DNA of 64,000 nucleotides from Antedon mediterranea (Eukaryota > Echinodermata > Crinoidea > Comatulida > Antedonidae): assembly GCF_964355755.1 (NCBI RefSeq), contig NC_092680.1:15849001-15913000 (forward strand), given 5' to 3'. Positions 1,696-60,055 of the stretch are shown one piece after another (position 1 is the first letter of the stretch; each line of letters starts with the position of its first letter). The notes beneath the pieces are model-generated. The model saw only the letters and a program-made list of their open reading frames with translations. It was not told the origin of the DNA and ran no database searches. The position numbers and the translations under genes are program-made.

Positions 1696-1797
1696 TGTTA
1701 TAATGCACAGTAATTGCTAAAGCTTAACTCACATAATTTGATCCTTCTTAGAAGTGAGTTGGACATTTTCCAATATTGTTCACATATTTTTATAAAT

Positions 1798-1848
1798 AAT
1801 AAATAACCATTTTATATAAGTTAGTATGAAACAACATAAAACAATAAA
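1798..1848 (+). terminator. Polyadenylation signals of receptor 1
   Basis: AATAAA at 1798-1803 and again at 1843-1848, about 100-150 nt after the stop codon of receptor 1. The spacing suits a short 3' UTR. Such words are common in AT-rich DNA, so this rests on position. Confidence 0.45.
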
Positions 1849-2416
1849 AATCAGCAAATTTATTGATCCTATAATATTCCTAATTATAATCTGAATATTG
1901 TATGAAAAAAATCCAGAAAAGGTTAAAACAGTTTTTAAAAAAATGTACTATAATTTATATTTTCCGTAGTCCTATATGCGTTAAATACTTTCAAGTGAGA
2001 TTTAAATTGTATAAATTTATAAATTATTAGGTCTTATTTAAATTAAACTTATAGAGAGTTCAAATGTATTTAACATTTTTTTCCCAACGGAGTCATCTTT
2101 AATGCAATACACAAGAATAATGTAATTAATTTTAAAAGTTATCATCGGAAGTTATTGATTTTAAACTATGGAAAAGGAGACAGCGCCCTCTATTATAAAT
2201 GTAATTTGACAATTGATGAAAAAAAATATACCGTTTTCATTCTTCCATTTTTATTTCATTCCAATAATGTATCAGTACAAATTCGTAAATACTATTGAAT
2301 ATGATTTTTTTTACCAAAGGTTAAGGATTCTGATTAAATATTAAAAAGAAATAAACGAAATCACTTTATGAATATTTCATTTTTCATTATTAATATTAAC
2401 TTTTATTTTTAAAAAA

Positions 2417-2527
2417 ACAAGGCCAAATATATGGTTGCATTCGCGTGCTCAAATTTGAGCACGCGACCGACCGACCAACCAACCGACCATCCGACAAACC
2501 GAACGACATTAGTGAGCTGTAGAGTCA
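2417..2527 (-). mobile_element. CGGT/hairpin dispersed repeat, copy A
   Basis: On the minus strand it reads: a GACTCTACAGCTCACT-type left block, a run of CGGT/TCGG tetramers, a 22-bp perfect palindrome around CTCAAATTTGAG, then GGCCTTGTTT. The same order of blocks recurs at 15709-15796, 38338-38463, 46171-46988 and 57503-57615. It has no coding capacity. The layout (short hairpin, tandem-repeat core, conserved end) recalls non-autonomous Helitron-like elements, but the class is not proved. Confidence 0.65.
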
Positions 2528-4502
2528 AAATGTGGGAGAAAAATACACGGAAATTACATTTGGCTTTATAGTATATAGGCCTACTAAACAAATATGATGT
2601 CCATATAAACTAGCTCTTGGGCGATGGAGGATAAGGTATTATTCCAGAAAGTATAAACTATAACAAGTGAGCGAACAAACATGTTTATAAGATTGAAATC
2701 TAGAAATTAAAACAAATAAATAAATAAATATATATATAAATTAGGAATATCTGCGAATGCTTTTATAAACTCTGCCGGCTGTCATAACAAAAATATGCTC
2801 CAAAAAAAAAGTAACCTTGATTATACGTGCCATGGGTAGTTTGGCAGGGTACGGTACCGTGTATTCAAATGCTAAAAAAGAGTGGGACTAATATCCTCTC
2901 GGATATTATTATATTTATAATTAACAATTGATCTAGACATCACTTAGTATTGACGCTACAAAATTGTAACATAGTTTCCCACTTCGAAGCCAAGATAAAA
3001 ATAAATTAAACGTACTGTATGTTTCTAATTAGAAAACTTGATGATTATTGGTAAGTATCATTGATTGAGTTTCTTATCACTTGAACGCATCCATAAATTG
3101 GACAATCAGTAGACCTTGACACGATATTGCATGATGCCTTGATTAAACATCTTCCTCTTTCCACAAAATATAGGCCACCGAGCCGCGAAAGATTGATCCG
3201 ATCATCCCCCTAAAAATGACAGATTTGGCAAAAATCGTTGTAGAATTACTATAAATATTTTTTCCCATTGCCTGCCTTATACAAGCTTTGCTTATGGGCT
3301 GCCTTATACAAGCTTTGCTTTTTAGGAATGTTGCCCCTCTTATTTTAATAATTTTTACTGTTAATTTATTTTCTATGAAAGACAAGAGAAATAAATGTTA
3401 CTTTGATTGATTGATTGATTGTTTCAAAAGTGTTTGGCGTATGCTTTGGAAACTTTTTAAAAGTAATCCATAGATGTGCCTAAAAGTGAAGTAAATGTGA
3501 TAAGTATTTTCATTTAGTATTAATTACAAAATTATTCGAAAGTATGGTAAAAAAAAACAAGAAAAAAAACCGTGTTTGCTGTATTCTTTCAAGGGTTTTG
3601 TTTGATTGTTTTTATACAAGGTTTCCTACCATTGTTCTATAAGATTAGTAATAATGTGGTACACCATATTCATATTTTTATTGTGGACTTCCCTTGAACT
3701 TACATGCAGATACCAATGTAGGTTAATTGTTATAATTGTTATATAGAATGTTTCTACCTAACAATGTAAGACTCACATGAGACTTGTAAATACAATGCAG
3801 TTTATCCATATTGTAACTTTCAAGTTATAAAACAACGACAAAGCTGAAAAGGAACATTCCCGAGCTGTTGCTTCAGTATTTTCCTATTCTATTTCTTTAA
3901 GTTAATTTTAACTTTTTTTTCTCAGTATAGCTCTTTTCTACTCTGTACTACAATACTGTATTTACTATTATACTTTTTTTTTCAAACATGTTTGTTCGAT
4001 ATATTTCATTAGTAGGTCTAATTGAGTGGTATTATTATTATTATTATTATTCTGATTTGAAATAATTTAATTATTGAACAATAACTTCATATTTTGGGTT
4101 CATTTACAATTAACGACCCATTCAAGGTCTTAACGTATATTAATCTATTTCTAAGAAATATGAGAAATAATAATAAGCTAAAAATTTTCTGTTTGAAAGG
4201 TTCAAAATGTTAAGCAATGCTTAAAGTTGGTGTAATTCCAGGTGCTACTTCATCCCGCTGGTGAATTTTTTATACGTTTATATAGTTTTAAATTTATTTT
4301 AATAATTTCCTTAGGTTGGATGAAAAAGTAATATTCCTTATTTCTCAGTTTATACTTGTATACGGTTACACACGTTACTCGAACCAATAAATATGTTTTC
4401 GAGTCTCCTAAAAAACATATAAGAAGTTTGATGAGTAATTTCCATAGGGGCTGTTAATGGAAGGTACCAGCAATATAGAGTCGTATGTATGAACTAAAAT
4501 GA

Positions 4503-9745: not shown

Positions 9746-10016
9746 GAAAGAATGCTCATCAAAGAATGCTCATCAAAGAATGCTCATCAAAGAATGCTCA
9801 TCAAAGAATGCTCATCAAAGAATGCTCATCAAAGAATGCTCATCAAGGAATGCTCATCAAAGAATGCTCATCAAAGAATGCTCATCAAAGAATGCTCATC
9901 AAAGAATGCTCATCAAAGAATGTTCATCAAAGAATGCTCATCAAAGAATGCTCATCAAAGAATGCTCATCAAAGAATGCTCATCAAAGAATGCTCATCAA
10001 AGAATGCTCATCAAAA
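9746..10016. repeat. 14-bp minisatellite, about 19 units
   Basis: Head-to-tail copies of AAGAATGCTCATCA with only two single-base variants (a GGAATG unit near 9846 and a TGTTC unit near 9922). Because 14 is not a multiple of 3 and the unit lacks stops, all three + frames are open with the same 14-residue repeat. The near identity points to recent expansion. Confidence 0.95.
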
Positions 10017-44583: not shown

Positions 44584-46170
44584 CATAGACTCGTCTGTGT
44601 AGTAGGCATATGATGTTTGTGTAGTAAACTAAGGCATGTATGTGTATGAGGTTTAAACATAATGTCTGTGTAGTAGGCCTAAGCATGTCTGTATAGTAAG
44701 TTTAAGCCTGTTTGTTTAGTAGGCCCTTTGGCGATAGTAGTCTTTGACAGCAATAGCTTGTAATAACAATTACCCACCCAATTGTGGTTATAATTGTTGA
44801 TATAGTGCTAAAATAAATTGAAATAAATTTTGAGTTTGACAAGATTACGTTAGTGATGGACATTAGTATGTTCGGGCGTATCATTATCATCATAATTTTA
44901 CAGCAACAAGCAAAACTGTTACAACTAACGACAGAGTGTAGGCCCTGTTATTGAAATATTTGGGATATATTGTTAATTTAAAAACTTACACAAATAAACT
45001 TATTGTGTTCCAATGATATACTTATTAAATGAATTATATAACTTGTATACTTTAAGGTAGTAAACTAATGTAAAATATATTTTAAACGAAATTCATTTTT
45101 CTATAATGTATTAATATCATCGAGAAATAAAATATGTATCAATTCGAGGAAGTTAAAAGTACGCCCTCTAATTGAAAACAAATTAGATGTATTGTTCGGC
45201 ATAATAGAGGGCGAACTAACGACATTGAATGGCAGATTTGTTTATGGGTTATTTATAAAATTGTCAATCGTTAATTTCATAAAAAATGTTCAATACACAT
45301 TATTTAAAAAGATAAAGATTGATTTATTTTAGCGTCCAATTTCAATAAAAACATTCTTATTTTTATTCCTTAAAGACAATACAAACATAACATAAAACGT
45401 GAAAGTGGAGCACTAAGGAGAAACAAAAGCTGTCAAAGACTACTATCGCCAAAGGGCCTACTAAACAAACAGGCTTAAACTTACTATACAGACATTTTTT
45501 TTTAAATTTATTTATTTATTTTTTTATTTCATTTCATCACATACATAATACAAAATTAATATATAAAGGCAACGTAATTATTAAAACGATATAATACTCT
45601 CTCAAAAATAAAAGAGTAATGAAATTAAAGAAAAAAAAATAATAATGTATCGCAAAAATACACTTAATAATAATCATTTTGCTAATAATATGGTTGCCTT
45701 GTATTTTTGGTAAATGTGAAATAAATGATTATAATTAAGTAATTGTTTTTTGATTTTGCAACTAAATATGTACCACTTTGTAATTAAAATTAAAATGTTT
45801 GCATCACTGTGTGTTTTTCCAAAACCAAAACATATACTTTCTTTGGTGATAATTAAGTTATTGTTGATATTTCGATACATATATTGTTTTACATTTTCCC
45901 AAATTTTCTCTACCAGATCACATTCAAAGAACATATGTAGCAGTGTTTCCTGCTTTTCCTTGCAAAAACTACACATTGGTGAATCGACCTTTGACATCTT
46001 AAAGAGCATTGTATTTGTATAAATTATACGATGAATAAATTTAAATTGAACATTTTTTAGCTTAGTGTCATTTGTACAGGCGTGTAAATTTGAGAAAAGG
46101 TTTTTCCAATTAAGTTTGTTGTCAAACTCCTTTTCCCATTTGGATTCAATTCCAATTGGCTCTTCAATAT

Positions 46171-46988
46171 TTTTAGTCGCGTGGAAGCGACTCTATAGTT
46201 CACTATGTCGGTCGGTCGGTCTGTCTGTCGGTCTGTCTGTCAGTCTGTCTGTCTGTCGGTCCGGTATCACTATGCGTTTTATCGCTTTCTGACCTTATCT
46301 TGATATCAGTTTAATCTAGCTAGGTCAATTTTTCACAGTATATTCCTTATGGCCAGGAATCAATGTGGTTAAGTTTTCACGGTGCGCAATAAAAAATTAC
46401 GCGGTCTACGCACGATTTAACGAAATCACGTTTGTAATCATATCTTCACAACCATGAATCACAATTAAATAAAATTTGGTACTCATAAATTTCAGGGCAT
46501 AAATCATCATATGGCAATACAATTACGTGCGTAGCGCATGTAACGCATGCGTACGCGCGCTTAACATTTTCAAAATTTATTTTCGATGAAATAAGAGTAC
46601 ATTTCAGGCAATTTTAAGCGTTTACAAAATTGCCATGAGTGCGCATATTTTTGCGCGCGCACTGCGCGTTAAATGTTAGTGCGCACTCTTTTTGCCCGAT
46701 TTCTGTTTTCTTGACTTACTTTTCAACTCGAAATTACGTTATACGAGCACGTCGAAAGTGACAGGCTACGCACGTGTAAATTTAAAAAAAATAAATGTTT
46801 TTAAACATTTCAACATTTTTAAACATGTTCAGTAATTTCGGTCAGTATAGTTCACTATGTCGGTCGGTCGATCTCTCTGTCTGTCTGTCTGTCTGTCTGT
46901 CGGTCTGTCGGTCTGTCTGTCGGTCTGTCTGTCGGTCCGGTATCACTATGCATTGTAGCACGCGACTTAATGGCTGTTGGCCTTGTTT
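46171..46988 (+). mobile_element. CGGT/hairpin repeat, long copy D nested in the LINE
   Basis: Begins TTTTAGTCGCGTGGAAGCGA and ends TGGCTGTTGGCCTTGTTT. The block from TAGTTCACTATGTCGG through (CGGT/CTGT)n to CCGGTATCACTATGC occurs twice, at about 46194-46274 and 46847-46952, with ~570 nt of less AT-rich, GCGC-containing sequence between. It interrupts the LINE, and AATAT is found at both edges as a possible short target duplication. Confidence 0.75.
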
Positions 46989-47471
46989 AATATAATGTGT
47001 TTATAGATATAATGACAATTTCTCGTTTTCACAGAAATGAATGTCTGTAATTTGGATTCAACTTCATTAGTTGTGTTTATACCTTGTTCAATTAATTTCT
47101 GTTTCCAGAGCTTTGGAATTGAATTTACAATCTGGTGATATAATAAGAAGTCTGGTTTAAAATTATATTTTTGGTTAAATTCGTCTAGTTCTAATATTTT
47201 CCCTTCTTTGTTCACGATATCTTTTACATAGTTTACATTTTTAACCAACCAATTGTTTTCAACTTTAAATTCTCTTTTATCAAAACATGAGTTGTTCCAT
47301 AAAGATTGATTTAAGATGTCCTCTATCGTATACGGTTCTACAAAATTGTATTCACTCCACGCAGAGAGTATATCTTTATAGAACCTTTCAAATTGTTTTA
47401 ATATTTTTGAAGATTTAGAAAAGTTGGTTTCGAAAACAATATTTCCTCCAACCTCTTTAATCGTACTTTTT

Positions 47472-48137
47472 GAAAACACTTTCCACTTGGATTGATTTCC
47501 ATCAAGATATCTTTTCACCCAACATGATTTGAGAGATGTAGTAACTCTTAATATGGGGAATTTTTAACCCTCCTTCGTCAAAATTGTTAAGCATGACTTT
47601 TCTTTTGACTTTATCGGGTTTTCCGTTCCATATAAATTTAAAAATTTTACTTTGAATATCTTGAAGGAAACAATCGGGTGGGTCTGGTAAATTTGAGAAA
47701 ACATACGTGAATATCGGGAGAAACAGTGACTTAATAATAGTTGCTTTTCCAAACAAAGTAAGTGAGCGTTGTTTCCACATATTTAATACTTGTTCAGCAT
47801 TTTGAAAAACACTTTCCACTTGGATTGATTTCCATCAAGATATCTTTTCACCCAACATGATTTGAGAGATGTAGTAACTCTTAATATGGGGAATTTTTAA
47901 CCCTCCTTCGTCAAAATTGTTAAGCATGACTTTTCTTTTGACTTTATCGGGTTTTCCGTTCCATATAAATTTAAAAATTTTACTTTGAATATCTTGAAGG
48001 AAACAATCGGGTGGGTCTGGTAAATTTGAGAAAACATACGTGAACATCGGGAGAAACAGTGACTTAATAATAGTTGCTTTTCCAAACAAAGTAAGTGAGC
48101 GTTGTTTCCACATATTTAATACTTGTTCAGCATTTTT
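47472..48137. repeat. 333-bp tandem direct duplication within the LINE
   Basis: Two adjacent copies (about 47472-47804 and 47805-48137) with exactly 333 bp between matching bases; the TTCCACTTGG word starts at 47481 and 47814. I saw one substitution (GTGAATATCGG versus GTGAACATCGG) and a small A-run difference. 333 is a multiple of 3. Confidence 0.93.
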
Positions 48138-49384
48138 TGCCTTATCTGGAAAATTGAGTCTGAAAATATCATTAAAATTACAAGATATATCAACACCCAA
48201 GTATTTTACTGGGCCTTTGGTCCATGAAATACTTTTCTCAGATGGCGTTTTATAGTCGCAGTTTCTTAACGATCCTATTCTCATAATGTTACTTTTTTCA
48301 GAATTAATTCTGAGTCCAGAATATATAGAAAATTCATCCAGTATATCTATAATCGGTTTAATTGAGTTTTGGTCTTTGAGAAAAAACACAGTGTCATCTG
48401 CAAATTGGCTAATTCTTATGTCTACATTATTGTACTCTATACCTTTAAATGTGTCTGATTGACGTACCATGTTACCTAGTGTTTCTGCACAAATTATAAA
48501 AAGATATAGGGATAAGGGACATCCTTGACGCAGGCCTCGTTTTAAATTGAAGAATTTTGATGTTACCCCGTTATTTATAACGCAACTAACAATGTCTTTA
48601 TATAATATTTTTATCCAATTTATCATATTTTTACCAAAGCCAAATCTCTATCATATCAAGGAAGTCCCATTTCACCTTATCGAAAGCCTTTTCGAAATCT
48701 ACAAAAAAATAGTAAGTTTGGCTTGTTGTGCATTTCTGCATATTCTATTACATCATAGACTAATCTTATGTTTTCTCCAATATATCTGCCTTTAAGAAAG
48801 CCCGTTTGATCAGGATTAATTACTGATGGCAGCACACATTTTAAACGAGTCGCAATGGCTTTTGCTAAAATTTTATAATCCACATTTAAAAGCGAGATGG
48901 GACGCCAGTTTTTAAATAATAGCGGAGATTTATCTTTTTTCGGTATAAGTGATATCACCCCTCGTTTCTGGGAGATACTTAAAAACCCGGATTGGAAAGA
49001 ATAATGGTAAGCGTTAATTAGCGTATCTTTTATATCATTTTAAAATAGTTTATAAAACTCGGCAGGAAAACCATCTGTCCCAGGGGTTTTATTGTTATCC
49101 ATCGCCTTTAATGCTTCTAAACTACTATACAGACATGCTTAGGCCTACTACACAGACATTATATTTAAACCTTATACACATACATGCCTTAGTTTACTAC
49201 ACAAACATCATATGCCTACTACACAGACGAGCCTATGCCCACTTATACATAAAAGGCAATATGTCTAGAAAAAATCACAAAGCACACATGGAATATGGTA
49301 CTCCTCAAATGGCCTAAATTGTCAATTACAAGTAATCTGGTTCTGAATATATCGCAGTCATCCAATAAAAGTGATAAGCTTATT

Positions 49385-54278: not shown

Positions 54279-56168
54279 ATGGGCTTGTCAACAAAGTTGT
54301 TATTTCTGGCTGTGTTGCCAATTGTTATCGAAGCGCAGTTTATTCAGTCGCCTCAATCACAAGTTGTTATACTCGGAGAATCCGTAACTCTACGATGCAC
54401 ATTTAATGTTAGTCCAGGAGCGGTACTTATGACTTATTGGTTAAAGGGATCTTCTCATATTAGCATTAGGCGACAAATATTAGAAGTCACTGGAGAGGAT
54501 ATTAAACGACGATATTCAATAGTAGGTGACACAAAAAACATGGAGTACTCTCTAAAAATAGTCGATGTTAAAGTTGAAGACGCTGGTGAATATATTTGTG
54601 CATACATGAGCGCGTCAAAAGTATCAACTACTGTGCCCGCTATCATAACCGTTATTGTTCCACCAAAAGCCGATTTTCCAGTATGTTTGTCGACACCTGA
54701 GCCTGGTGCACACAAACCTGGTTCTACTGTCCAGTTAAACTGTATTTCGCTTGGAGGTGTACCCCGAGCAGATTTAACTTGGACTCGTAATGCTATACAG
54801 CTTGGAAACATGACTTTTGACAATAACAAAATCACGCATGTGCTTACACCAGACGACAATGGTGTTTATTTTAAATGCTCTGCTACAAGTCCAGCTTTAA
54901 GGAAACCTCGAATGTGTGTCATCATGCCGATGAAAATACCACCATCACCAATGATTAAAGGGAGCTCAAATAGTTCACTTGTGGGAGAGGATTTCACTGC
55001 CAGCTGTCGTAGTGATGGAATACCAGCCATTGGGTCGTATTCATGGTTTATAGATGGTCGTCCAGTTGACTTTACCAATCCACGCTTTTCTGAAATTAAC
55101 CACCATATTAAAATCCGCAACCTTCAAAAGAAAGAGGATAATTCTATCTTAACGTGTATGGCAACAACAACTCTAGGTTTGACCGGAAATTATAGCATAC
55201 TGTTAACAGTTAATCAACCAACAACGACAGCGCCTCCCACTACTCTATTTTCAACAACAACACAGGCAACATACACTGTTACAAATTCAAACATAATAAT
55301 TAATCCTTGGGAAGAAGTTGAAAGTGAAGTGAAAAATAAAGATTATACCGATACAAGTGTCACACGCTATAACATGAAACTAATCTTAGCATTGATATTT
55401 GGAATGCTAATCTTCATCTTTATCATTGTCCTAATGACTCTAACTTACTTCTTTGCATCACATACCACCCGAGCACAACAGAAGGAATCTCGCTATGAAG
55501 AAACAACACTAGGCCCAGTAAGTCATCGAAATTCATTTATTTATATGCCTGCTTTACACCAAGGTGAAAATGGGCAGATTTTCCACACGTCCGCCAATGA
55601 CGAGAACTCGAGCGGATATATTTCTCAGTTGTACGCTAGTCTCGAAAAACCAAAACATCACATGAACAAAAGCCAAAGCGTTTCTGCTTTACACAATAAA
55701 AACATTAAATCAGCTCTTAGTCCAAGTCCAAGTGTTGTGACCCTACCTGTCAACACTCCATGTGGAGGGCGTAAGGATTACAGAAGCTATAATAGAGTCC
55801 AGTATACTAAGCAACCTTTACGCTACACCACACATGTTGACGCTCCATTTGCCCTACCAAATGACGGCATGGTCACGTTCCACCCAATGCGTCGCAACAC
55901 TATGGATAATATTGCTTCAACGTCTGCCATGGCAAACCGTGCTGCATTTTCAATGAGACGTGGTACCAGCATAGGCTATGACAATGTTTGTCTTTCCGAA
56001 AACTATGGCCCCGGTTCTGAAATGGATTACGTACCAAACGAGGACATCTACGTGAATAGACCTATTGATGGATATCGAAATAATGAAATAAGTGATAATG
56101 ACCTTCCACCACCGCCACCATACGTAGCCGAAGAACAACCGCAACCTAATCCATTCCTTCCAGACTAA
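54279..56168 (+). CDS. Three-Ig type I membrane receptor, paralogue 3
   Basis: 629 residues. I start at the ATG in GCCATGGGC (an ideal Kozak context), which opens a clean signal peptide ending VIEA|QF; the frame is open further upstream but without another ATG. Ig1: C40, W54, C107. Ig2: C136, C155, W168, C200, C213. Ig3: C243, W256, C293. These nearly equal the residue numbers in the receptor at 22355. A Thr-rich, probably O-glycosylated stalk (about 313-342) precedes the membrane helix (about 368-392). The tail has YVNR and YDNV (Grb2-type YxN), YASL, a PPPPPY end (WW ligand) and NPF near the C-terminus (EH-domain ligand). A cell-surface signalling or adhesion receptor is inferred. A donor-like site within the tail suggests a second isoform. 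Confidence 0.93.
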   Translation: MGLSTKLLFLAVLPIVIEAQFIQSPQSQVVILGESVTLRCTFNVSPGAVLMTYWLKGSSHISIRRQILEVTGEDIKRRYSIVGDTKNMEYSLKIVDVKVEDAGEYICAYMSASKVSTTVPAIITVIVPPKADFPVCLSTPEPGAHKPGSTVQLNCISLGGVPRADLTWTRNAIQLGNMTFDNNKITHVLTPDDNGVYFKCSATSPALRKPRMCVIMPMKIPPSPMIKGSSNSSLVGEDFTASCRSDGIPAIGSYSWFIDGRPVDFTNPRFSEINHHIKIRNLQKKEDNSILTCMATTTLGLTGNYSILLTVNQPTTTAPPTTLFSTTTQATYTVTNSNIIINPWEEVESEVKNKDYTDTSVTRYNMKLILALIFGMLIFIFIIVLMTLTYFFASHTTRAQQKESRYEETTLGPVSHRNSFIYMPALHQGENGQIFHTSANDENSSGYISQLYASLEKPKHHMNKSQSVSALHNKNIKSALSPSPSVVTLPVNTPCGGRKDYRSYNRVQYTKQPLRYTTHVDAPFALPNDGMVTFHPMRRNTMDNIASTSAMANRAAFSMRRGTSIGYDNVCLSENYGPGSEMDYVPNEDIYVNRPIDGYRNNEISDNDLPPPPPYVAEEQPQPNPFLPD

Positions 56169-56361
56169 TACAATGTTCATATGATATCAATGTTAATATT
56201 GATATACACTGCATGTTCTGCTATTTATAAACTTAAAAGGCATGTAAACAATACAATGTGAAAACTATTAAGGGAGGTTGTACCCTTTGGAATTGTCACA
56301 GCTGGTCTATACAACCAACAATGAACGTATTGTAACGCAGGATCTTTTCTCTCAATTTCAG
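55518..56361 (+). other. Candidate retained or optional intron in receptor 3
   Basis: The donor CCA|GTAAGT begins at 55518, exactly between codons, 20 residues past the membrane helix. The acceptor TTCTCTCAATTTCAG ends at 56361, also between codons of the downstream frame. The interval is 844 nt. If retained, the tail coded inside it is used up to the stop at 56168; if removed, translation passes in frame into 56362. A second phase-0 acceptor (TTGTCACAG) ends at 56301. Confidence 0.55.
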
Positions 56362-57012
56362 AACTATAATAATGAAGATCCTATAGGTGACAGAGTGTCA
56401 AAGACCAGGGACTTTCCACATTACCCTCAAACGTATGTGTCTCAAGATCCTCTAACGGTAGGCTTGGCTGGGTTAGCTATCAATGACCATTCGTATGACC
56501 AAACAACTTCAAGTGAATTTGAAATGACAGTTTCCCAGGAAAAGTTAACTGATGAAGAAAAAATCGAAAGTTTGCAAGCCGCGGTTGATCCAATTAGTGA
56601 TGCTAAATTGGAAAGCGATGAACCCGTATGTGTAGTCATCGAAAATGACGCCACGGCTAAACAGCAAAACACATTGATTGAAAGAGAAGATGTTTCTTGT
56701 GAAATGCTTTCCGAACCGATTCAAGCCCCAACACCTAAGACCAGTGACGTGAATACGCACTCTACAGCGGATAGCGACTTGGATGAGCGTAACCCTCAAG
56801 CAATGACTCCAAATTCAGATTGTGTAAAGCTAGTAATAACGGACGAACATCAACCGTGTGCAGATCCCAAAGAAGACATCAGTCGGGAGCAAAATGTAGT
56901 AAATGTCTCTGTTGAAACTCCAAGTAACAGTGCTCCGCTAGAGGTAGATGTAGACACTGGTAGTGATACCAATGCAATCCGGGCTTCACAACTTTCTGAT
57001 GAGGTAGATTAG
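56362..57012 (+). CDS. Alternative cytoplasmic tail exon of receptor 3
   Basis: 216 codons then TAG at 57010-57012. The frame is open back to 56272 but has no ATG near its start, so it is an exon, not a free gene. Composition is protein-like: acidic, rich in Ser, Thr, Asp and Glu, with no transmembrane segment. It has NYNNE (YxN), HYPQTYV and SYDQ tyrosines. Joined to the phase-0 donor at 55518 it replaces the PPPPPY/NPF tail by an unrelated one. The two exchangeable tails are both 648 nt, which I take as coincidence since no similarity is visible. An alternative reading is a decayed neighbouring gene's last exon. Confidence 0.6.
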   Translation, partial: NYNNEDPIGDRVSKTRDFPHYPQTYVSQDPLTVGLAGLAINDHSYDQTTSSEFEMTVSQEKLTDEEKIESLQAAVDPISDAKLESDEPVCVVIENDATAKQQNTLIEREDVSCEMLSEPIQAPTPKTSDVNTHSTADSDLDERNPQAMTPNSDCVKLVITDEHQPCADPKEDISREQNVVNVSVETPSNSAPLEVDVDTGSDTNAIRASQLSDEVD

Positions 57013-57102
57013 GTTGTGATTCTGTAGTGAACAATTTCGAGTAAAATTAAATTGAATAGTTAAGAATTTTCACACCTTGGCATTTCTATGTAAATGTACA
57101 TG

Positions 57103-57108
57103 AATAAA
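57103..57108 (+). terminator. Polyadenylation signal after the alternative tail exon
   Basis: AATAAA 91 nt after the stop at 57012, followed by a GTTG-containing stretch. I find no AATAAA between 56168 and 56272, so both tail isoforms would probably share this 3' end. Confidence 0.55.
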
Positions 57109-58290
57109 ACACAGTTGTTGACAATTTTCTTTAATACTAATTGCAATAATTGTGTTCTCTCCATGGCGTACCGTACTATTTAAAAGTAATACCTATTTAG
57201 ACAATAATAAAATTATTATATATTAAAAAAACTGTTAATAATGATATTACGTAACGATGCAATAATTTGGATATATTGATGTAAATATCATTAATTAAAT
57301 TTTCCAAAAGACGAATTATTAAATTATGTATATAAAAAATACTGTATATTTTATAATTCTGTATGATGTATAGTATGTGTGAATTGGTGCAGATTGTTTC
57401 CCACTCGGACGCAACGCAATGACGTAAGCACAACGCAAGTAAGTTGACCAATCACAACCGACGGTTTAGAATATCCATCGCATCTTGATTGATCAAGTCA
57501 TTTTTAGTCGTGTGCAAACGCGACTCTACAGCTCACTATGTCGGTTGTTCGGTCGGTCGGTAAACACTAACTCAAATGTGAGCACGCGACTGCAGCCATT
57601 TATATGGTCTTGTTGGTGCACTTACAACATTGTGTTGCATCTAATTATGAGGAAGCAATCTTTAGACATAAACAGGCCTTTGTATGCGTTTGAACATTTT
57701 GCAAATTTTATGCTGTTTATCAATTTGAGAAAACTCATATTATTTGTTTATTCTAAAATAAAATTATTACTTAAGAAATGATATTCATTATATTATCTTT
57801 TTAAAAATATGTGACACTACTGTAATTGGTTCTTCATGCAGCAACTCATAAGTAATTTCAAACGGAAACAACCTGATAATTAATCTAATAAACACAATGC
57901 TTTCATAATTGCATTTAAATAATTGCACTTTTAGATGAAGGAAGTACGGAATCCAATTCTTGAAAGAAATGTGAAGATCTTACAAAGCTGGACTGTGCCA
58001 TGAGGCGATTCTTGTACAGGTTAATGTCTAGAGACGTCAAAGCTATGGTGTTGTGTCGTGTAAAGCGACGATAACATGACTTTCCATAAGACACGAATGT
58101 CAGTACAAGACCAACACCTAAATATTAATTGGATATGACCCTTTGAATATTCTCTCTCATTAGATTTTTGAAAAAAAATCTTTTGTGTTCAAGATTAAAA
58201 AGCTAAAGCAATGTCAGTCAAAAAGCTGGCTTGCCGAAAAGTGTTGACATACGGTATTTAAAAAAGAGGCAAAATTCAGACAAAGTCCTG
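57109..58290. other. Spacer right of receptor 3
   Basis: AT-rich apart from the CGGT repeat at 57503-57615. No gene seen. Confidence 0.55.
57503..57615 (+). mobile_element. CGGT/hairpin dispersed repeat, copy E (best short copy)
   Basis: All blocks are in order: TTTTAGTCGTGTGCAAACG with partner CGCGACT, CTACAGCTCACTATGTCGG, the CGGT core, GTAAACACTAACTCAAATG, the GAGCACGCGACTGCAGCC block and a TATATGGTCTTGTT end. This copy gives the family's minimal length of about 113 bp. Confidence 0.75.
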
Positions 58291-58309: not shown

Positions 58310-60055
58310 AGCAAAATTCTGATTCTTGTTTTAAGAAAAAAAAAACTTGTTTCAAGCAAAATATTTCTTGAAACAAGTAAATTTTGACTTGTCCGTATTT
58401 CAATACTTTTTGGCTTACCAAGAATCGTAAAATTCTTAACAAGAATCACACAAATTCTTATCAAGAAAATTATTCTTACCAAGAAATAATACTTTAAGAA
58501 CAATATTCTTACCAAGAATTTAATTGCTTTTTTCATTCTTGTTTTAAGCAGTATCTGTCTTAAAATAAGTAACAATTTATCGATTTTTTAAAATAGAATT
58601 CTTGTTTCAAGCAATATTTTTCTTAAAATAAGTAAGAATATTCCGATTTGTATTTTTTTGAATTCTTGTTTCAAGCAATATATTTCTTAAAATAAGTAAG
58701 AATATTCCGATTTGTATTTTATAGAATTCTTGTTTCAAGCAATATATTTCTTAAAATAAGTAAGAATATTCCGATTTGTATTTTTTTGAATTCTTGTTTC
58801 AAGCAAGATATTTCTTAAAATAAGTAAGAATATTCCGATTTGTATTTTATAGAATTCTTGTTTCAAGCAATATATTTCTTAAAATAAGTAAGAATATTCC
58901 GATTTGTATTTTTTTGAATTCTTGTTTCAAGCAAGATATTTCTTAAAATAAGTAAGAATATTCCGATTTTTATTTTTTGAATTCTTGTTTCAAGCAATAT
59001 TTTTCTTAAAACAAGTAAGAATATTCCGATTTTTATTTTTTGAATTCTTGTTTCAAGCAATATTTTTCTTAAAATAAGTAAGAATATTCCGATTTTTATT
59101 TTTTGAATTCTTGTTTCAAGCAATTTTTTTCTTAAAATAAGTAAGAATATTCCGATTTGTATTTTTTGAATTCTTGTTTCAAGCAAAATATTTCTTAAAA
59201 TAAGTAAGAATATTCCGATTTTTATTTGTAGAATTCTTGTTTCAAGCAATATATTTCTTAAAATAAGTAAGAATATTCCGATTTGTATTTTTTAGAATTC
59301 TTGTTTTAAGCAATATTTTTCTTAAAATAAGTAAGAATATTCCGATTTTTAATTTTAATATTCTTGTTTCAAGCAATATATTTCTTAAAATAAGTAAGAA
59401 TATTCCGATTTGTATTTTTTGAATTCTTGTTTCAAGCAATATTTTTCTTAAAATAAGTAAGAATATTCCGATTTGTATTTTTTGAATTCTTGTTTCAAGC
59501 AATATTTTTCTTAAAATAAGTAAGAATATTCCGATTTGTATTTTTTGAATTCTTGTTTCAAGCAATATATTTCTTAAAATAAGTAAGAATATTCCGATTT
59601 TTATTTGTAGAATTCTTGTTTCAAGCAATATTTTTCTTAAAATAAGTAAGAATATTCCGGTTTGTATTTTTTCGAATTCTTGTTTTAAGCAATATTTTTC
59701 TTAAAATAAGTAAGAATATTCCGATTTATATTTTTAGTTTTCTTGTTTCAAGCAATATATTTCTTAAAATAAGTAAGAATATTCCGATTTTTATTTGTAG
59801 AATTCTTGTTTCAAGCAAAACTTTTTTTAAAATAAGTAAACAAGAAGTCTATCAAATAAAAACCAGTAAATGTTTACTTATTTTAAGAAAAGTATTGCTT
59901 GAAACAAGAATTCTATCAAATTAAAATTCGTAAATTCTTACTTATATTGGGAAAAAAATTGCTTGAAACAAGAATTCTATAAAATATAAATCATTAAAAA
60001 TTTATTTTAAGAACGATAAATGAATACTCATTTTAAGTAATATTTTACTTAAACA
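58310..60055. repeat. Large ~64-bp tandem array with a terminal inversion
   Basis: About 20 units of 62-66 bp between 58590 and 59840. Each unit has GAATTCTTGTTTCAAGCAAT, TTTCTTAAAATAAGTAAGAA and TATTCCGATTTGTATTTT; start points at 58596, 58660, 58724 and 58788 give a period of 64. Left of it, 58310-58590 holds diverged relatives (CTTGTTTCAAG, ACCAAGAAT). From about 59870 to 60050 related units run in the opposite orientation, so the right end could fold back on the array. The long minus-strand open frames here are a by-product of near-63-bp units. Confidence 0.92.

Follow-up and report, generated by a model that had tools for sequence, protein, structure and literature searches.

Does receptor 3, a membrane receptor with Ig domains, carry one fixed tail, or could an optional terminal intron offer it a choice of two? 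The gene lies on the plus strand of the window (the whole 64,000-nt stretch of DNA that was analysed, G000:C11:15849001-15913000), within an assembly of 354 Mb and 18 contigs that was searched as well. Its open frame (54279-56168) encodes 629 aa, in the order of a signal-peptide-like start (recognised by eye), three Ig stretches with a V-set domain first, a membrane helix and a juxtamembrane RYEET. In the Pfam comparison, only Ig-type models passed the cut-offs, namely Ig_3 (E 7.3e-22, three stretches) and V-set (E 1.6e-14), and the membrane helix is strong, with its hydrophobic maximum at ILALIFGMLIFIFIIVLMTL. The nearest solved structures by sequence were SYG-2 (E 2.2e-17), MDGA1 (2.4e-14) and CD276 (1.5e-12). 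A structure prediction for the shared part, based on an alignment of three rows, was set aside (mean pLDDT 61.6, pTM 0.37). Close to the membrane, a YE site is present in receptor 1 (ESIYEEM), receptor 2 (DVDYELT) and receptor 3 (ESRYEET) of the window and is missing from most other family members. In receptor 3 this site lies upstream of the candidate donor discussed below, and it would therefore be kept in both forms.

The best 70 of 386 candidates from a genome search with receptor 3 were scored, and 68 of these 70 had no internal stop, which points to a large receptor family in which most members are single-ORF; among the 70 scored, the matches were mostly on contigs C11, C3 and C7. In this genome, myosin genes are split into exons. 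Two loci of the family look broken, L018, whose Ig region is interrupted by one in-frame stop, and L048, which may go on in another frame. ITIM-like YA[DEKH]x motifs were noticed in the tails of L022, L035, L036 and L042 (examples are LVYADL, LVYAEL with TEYAKI, and LTYADL with TIYADV), and the loose pattern [SILVT]xYxx[ILV] matched 14 of 36 family tails, some of these matches directly adjoining the helix and maybe fortuitous.

The original prediction placed a GTAAGT donor between codons shortly after the membrane helix, and we confirmed that its G at 55518 is in phase 0 relative to the ATG at 54279 and 25 residues past the most hydrophobic 20-mer (Table 1). This donor has the top score among the 117 GTs in 54279-56400, the runner-up (6.85) being in another phase and the next phase-0 GT scoring 4.90, and its exon side (CCA) is weak. 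Taken by itself, it is unremarkable and not improbable by chance. A phase-0 donor of at least the same score was obtained in 25.5% of 5000 synonymous shuffles anywhere in the ORF and in 6.1% within 60 codons past the helix, and the 37 copies of GTAAGT seen in the window match the chance expectation of 38.33. Out of 35 other receptors, three (L019, L024 and L034) likewise have a phase-0 GTAAGT in the tail, and their top downstream protein-like stretches score just 6.4-7.6.

Table 1 Features of the receptor 3 locus (positions within the window).
Feature	Position	Strand	Basis
Shared part of receptor 3	54279..55517	+	Open frame
Candidate 5' splice donor, CCA/GTAAGT, phase 0	55518..55523	+	Generic donor matrix, 7.88
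Tail 1, 216 codons and stop	55518..56168	+	Open; composition score 0.205 per codon
Proposed optional intron, 844 nt	55518..56361	+	Phase-matched donor and acceptor
Noncoding-like spacer, tail 1 stop to acceptor	56169..56361	+	Stops and negative composition score
Candidate 3' splice acceptor, TCTCTCAATTTCAG	56348..56361	+	Generic matrix, 7.29
Tail 2, 216 codons and stop, acidic	56362..57012	+	Open; 0.344 per codon; single copy
AATAAA, candidate shared poly(A) signal	57103..57108	+	Pattern; ATTAAA also at 57046

The proposed acceptor (CAATTTCAG/AAC) opens an exon at 56362 in phase 0 for the downstream frame, and donor and acceptor, both candidate sites by score and phase, are in matching phase. 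It had been described as a strong acceptor between codons; its position between codons was borne out, and its strength proved ordinary, as it ranks third among the 88 AGs in 55600-57200 and is outscored by those at 56164 (11.21) and 56539 (7.99). Lower-scoring in-phase acceptors are found at 56341 (4.85) and 56302 (3.40). Both the donor and the acceptor matrix hold generic values that were not derived from this genome. The scores were read against nine introns from two myosin genes, placed by reading frame and conserved myosin sequence, with junctions that had only one placeable end left out; these introns were picked by eye and therefore serve as a yardstick, not as a sample. Their donors scored 3.75-8.84 and their acceptors 1.85-11.64, and among the ten introns including the proposed one of receptor 3, the receptor 3 donor is third and its acceptor fifth. 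One myosin acceptor, CTTTTCAATTTCAG, has the same last nine bases as the receptor 3 acceptor. The top-scoring acceptor in 55600-57200, at 56164, is located at the extreme 3' end of tail 1 in a phase that matches donor 55518, and use of these two sites together could give a third, nearly tail-less receptor (GP-TNTMFI-stop).

If the segment is kept, the receptor would end in tail 1, which closes with TAA at 56166-56168. A pattern search recovered everything that had been claimed for this retained tail, namely YxN motifs (YDNV, YVNR and YRNN), PPPPPY and a terminal NPF, together with IGYDNV, which is ITIM-like; by their type, these motifs would serve SH2, WW and EH binding. The composition of tail 1 is family-like (0.205 vs a C-terminal mean of 0.188 in 32 members, whose last 216 codons range from 0.054 to 0.425 per codon). 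No relatives of tail 1 were found in the genome at E 10, it matched only itself among the fetched ORFs, and the comparison with solved structures gave one weak match at chance level (E 0.23). Since both splice sites score like those of the myosin introns, removal of the segment could be efficient, and it might even be constitutive, with tail 1 occurring only in the unspliced precursor or persisting as a relic of an older single-exon state. However, unused coding sequence within an intron should decay, whereas tail 1 shows no stop across its 216 codons, is family-like in composition and carries compact adaptor-type motifs, and we regard constitutive removal as unlikely.

The downstream frame had been predicted as an orphan frame of 216 codons without ATG. 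It is indeed open up to the TAG at 57010-57012, but it does contain in-frame ATGs, at 56524, 56704 and 56803. The first 54 codons have no in-frame ATG and are already protein-like (0.219, a score reached by one of 1210 noncoding windows); if translated, they need an upstream exon, and such an exon probably opens the tail 2 frame. The composition scores come from a codon model whose training set was 32 ORFs of the family plus noncoding DNA of the window, and the same noncoding DNA also served as the control. In 440 noncoding windows (overlapping, 216 codons, both strands) the maximum was 0.062, and none reached the value of tail 2. Along the frame, the score is -0.034 in the 30 codons before the acceptor, 0.219 in the next 54 and 0.386 in the remaining 162. 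The onset at the acceptor is not sharp, as the top-scoring segment begins at 56311, 17 codons upstream of it, and 5.8% of 30-codon family coding pieces score as low as the 30 codons in front of the acceptor. The composition score is not fully specific, because a frame antisense to the receptor (54455-54865) reaches 0.16 per codon, and openness alone does not yield the score of tail 2, because long mobile-element-like frames (45674-49039, minus strand) score below zero. Synonymous codon use gave -0.016 for tail 2, which 306 of the 440 noncoding windows equalled or bettered; this part of the signal is uninformative in this genome, and the coding signal of tail 2 thus rests on amino-acid composition. 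When 2 Mb of sequence was simulated to match the dinucleotide make-up of tail 2 and read in three frames of one strand, it contained no stop-to-stop frame of at least 217 codons and eight of at least 150.

Removal of the segment was expected to give an acidic and unrelated tail, and this agrees with what we found. Tail 2 has a pI of 4.06 (vs 6.47 for tail 1) and four tyrosines (vs 13), and the pattern search detected one YxN in it and no IGYDNV/ITIM-like motif, PPPPPY or NPF. That the two tails, both of 216 codons, are diverged duplicates was considered and rejected (best BLASTP E 3.5). Tail 2 has no relatives in the genome at E 10 (it is single copy and not a repeat), no Pfam match at E 1 and no match among solved structures at E 10, and among the fetched ORFs it matches only itself.

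An alternative explanation for tail 2 is that it is a terminal exon belonging to a different gene or transcript, entered at 56362 from an upstream exon or a trans-spliced leader, and never belongs to receptor 3. The donor in use cannot be read from sequence alone, and the receptor family is otherwise mostly single-ORF, both of which would suit such an origin. Against it, the 193 nt between the tails look noncoding in all forward frames (2 to 5 stops per frame, and a composition score below zero in each), translation after a leader or a noncoding first exon would have to start at an ATG whereas 54 protein-like codons precede the first one, and the top-scoring donor of receptor 3 has the right phase, which together make another gene's exon an improbable source. 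Tail 2 might also be an independent small gene downstream of receptor 3, starting from the in-frame ATG at 56524 (162 codons), and the later part does score higher than the first; but the 54 preceding codons are open and protein-like and start at an ordinary acceptor, and we consider an independent gene very unlikely. Tail 2 could, lastly, be an open frame that arose by chance in the 3' untranslated region; this would fit the lack of a signal in synonymous codon use and of detected relatives, but is hardly credible given the simulated frame lengths and a composition beyond that of all 440 noncoding windows.

The predicted AATAAA after the tail 2 frame is present, 934 nt from the tail 1 stop and 90 nt from the tail 2 stop. 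Among 45 paralogs examined, of which 44 have a signal, the distance from stop to AATAAA was at least 934 nt in eight of the 44 and at most 90 nt in another eight. Paralog distances fit both stops, and the poly(A) spacing thus decides nothing between the two tails.

A second tail of this kind appears peculiar to receptor 3 among the loci compared. When 1.5 kb downstream was scanned at 36 receptor loci, the top protein-like stretch scored 75.9 at receptor 3 and at most 13.8 at 33 of the 35 others, while at L044 (51.1) and L045 (31.8) the downstream stretch is the next tandem receptor; a two-tail layout throughout the family is accordingly unsupported. In eleven further loci, for which tables of frames of at least 80 aa were used, no downstream frame scored above zero beyond receptors or a receptor-like stretch, and the stretch of 189 aa downstream of L051 looks like the next receptor. 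Downstream of receptor 1 of the window, 1696-3700 contains a single frame of at least 60 aa, which scores -0.24.

Overall, the original prediction holds for the sites, phases, frames and motifs, with its statements on the missing ATG and on acceptor strength corrected, and two open protein-like tails, a phase-matched best donor and myosin-like site scores give the anatomy expected of an optional terminal intron. Because both tails are protein-like, the second is in another frame and without an early start codon, and the best donor is in phase, such an intron is the simplest reading. We therefore favour, with reasonable though not high confidence and judging from sequence, an optional 844-nt intron that would swap a tyrosine-rich for an acidic tail in receptor 3. 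Tail 2 is probably reachable only by splicing out tail 1, and receptor 3 may come in two signalling versions; we infer from this layout the splicing itself, its regulation, both mRNAs and the difference in signalling.

In the mechanism that we propose, the receptor 3 transcript would run beyond the AATAAA at 57103. With 55518-56361 left in, translation would end at 56168 after the tyrosine-rich tail; with this segment spliced out, ...GP would join NYNNED... in frame, giving an equally long, acidic and tyrosine-poor tail. Both forms would share the Ig domains, the helix and the YEET site near the membrane, and the likely effect would be to couple one ligand either to tyrosine and adaptor signalling (SH2, WW, EH) or to a form without those sites. 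No other intron was seen in the receptor 3 gene, and the choice would thus hang on the splicing of that one segment. Junction-dependent nonsense-mediated decay needs an exon junction, and an unspliced mRNA, which has none, should escape it, although its long 3' part could trigger decay all the same in some animals. More tentatively, and with somewhat more doubt than conviction, we suggest that one member of the family gained a lone terminal intron together with a regulated choice between a tyrosine-signalling and a tyrosine-poor acidic tail.

The principle of a receptor tail switch is already known, from Robo3 and from Botryllus FcoR. In Robo3, a vertebrate axon-guidance receptor, a retained intron near the 3' end separates two Ig-receptor forms of opposite functions, Robo3.1 and Robo3.2, according to the portions available of PMC5602073 and PMC12308364; in the former, Robo3.2 is described as retaining intron 26 of 27 and as a target of nonsense-mediated decay. 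Similar to Robo3, the retained and removed forms of receptor 3 are both open and differ in their C-termini, with a candidate donor and acceptor that are matched by score and phase. Unlike Robo3 as described in those portions, the segment would be the only intron seen in receptor 3, and the retained mRNA should escape junction-dependent decay. The best-matched invertebrate idea is, by analogy, that of the FcoR of Botryllus, Ig receptors with a sushi domain, in which alternative splicing can exchange an ITIM for a hemITAM and thereby give a single binding part two outputs (PMC12065747, in excerpt). Compared with the FcoR of that excerpt, receptor 3 shows no sushi domain (the sushi model is absent from its Pfam list at E 1) and would exchange whole tails, not single motifs, behind one open frame that carries every Ig domain.

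Intron retention also changes the cytoplasmic tail of endoglin, which is not an Ig receptor and whose retained form has a short tail. The likeness between receptor 3 and S-endoglin/L-endoglin is one of intron retention in a membrane receptor gene (work cited in PMC8003971). The second tail of receptor 3, in contrast, is of full length. Exitrons are coding segments within an exon that may be spliced out like an intron, with the same exon coding on after the segment. The segment in receptor 3 is likewise coding exon sequence that would be removable as an intron; unlike an exitron, it has a stop of its own (TAA 56166-56168), and tail 2 follows in another frame. This class is mentioned in the portion available of PMC5602073.

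In the literature searched, we found no report of a whole-tail exchange in an otherwise single-ORF receptor and none on the receptor 3 gene. If true, the switch would be a compact case of one binding domain with two outputs in an Ig-receptor cluster, with a single intron as the sole moving part, and the gain of the intron and the signalling switch could be dated together by species comparison. It would also be a warning that a second tail can go unnoticed when such receptors are annotated as single ORFs.

The window contains several repeats besides the receptor genes. Downstream of receptor 3, a tandem array with a 63-bp unit occupies 58528-59839 (20.7 copies, 91% matches). On the minus strand, pieces of a reverse-transcriptase-like element were recognised by eye in 45674-49039, and this stretch includes a 333-bp tandem duplication at 47468-48136 (99% matches). 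A further array, at 9747-10015, is made of the 14-bp unit AAAGAATGCTCATC (19.2 copies, 98% matches).
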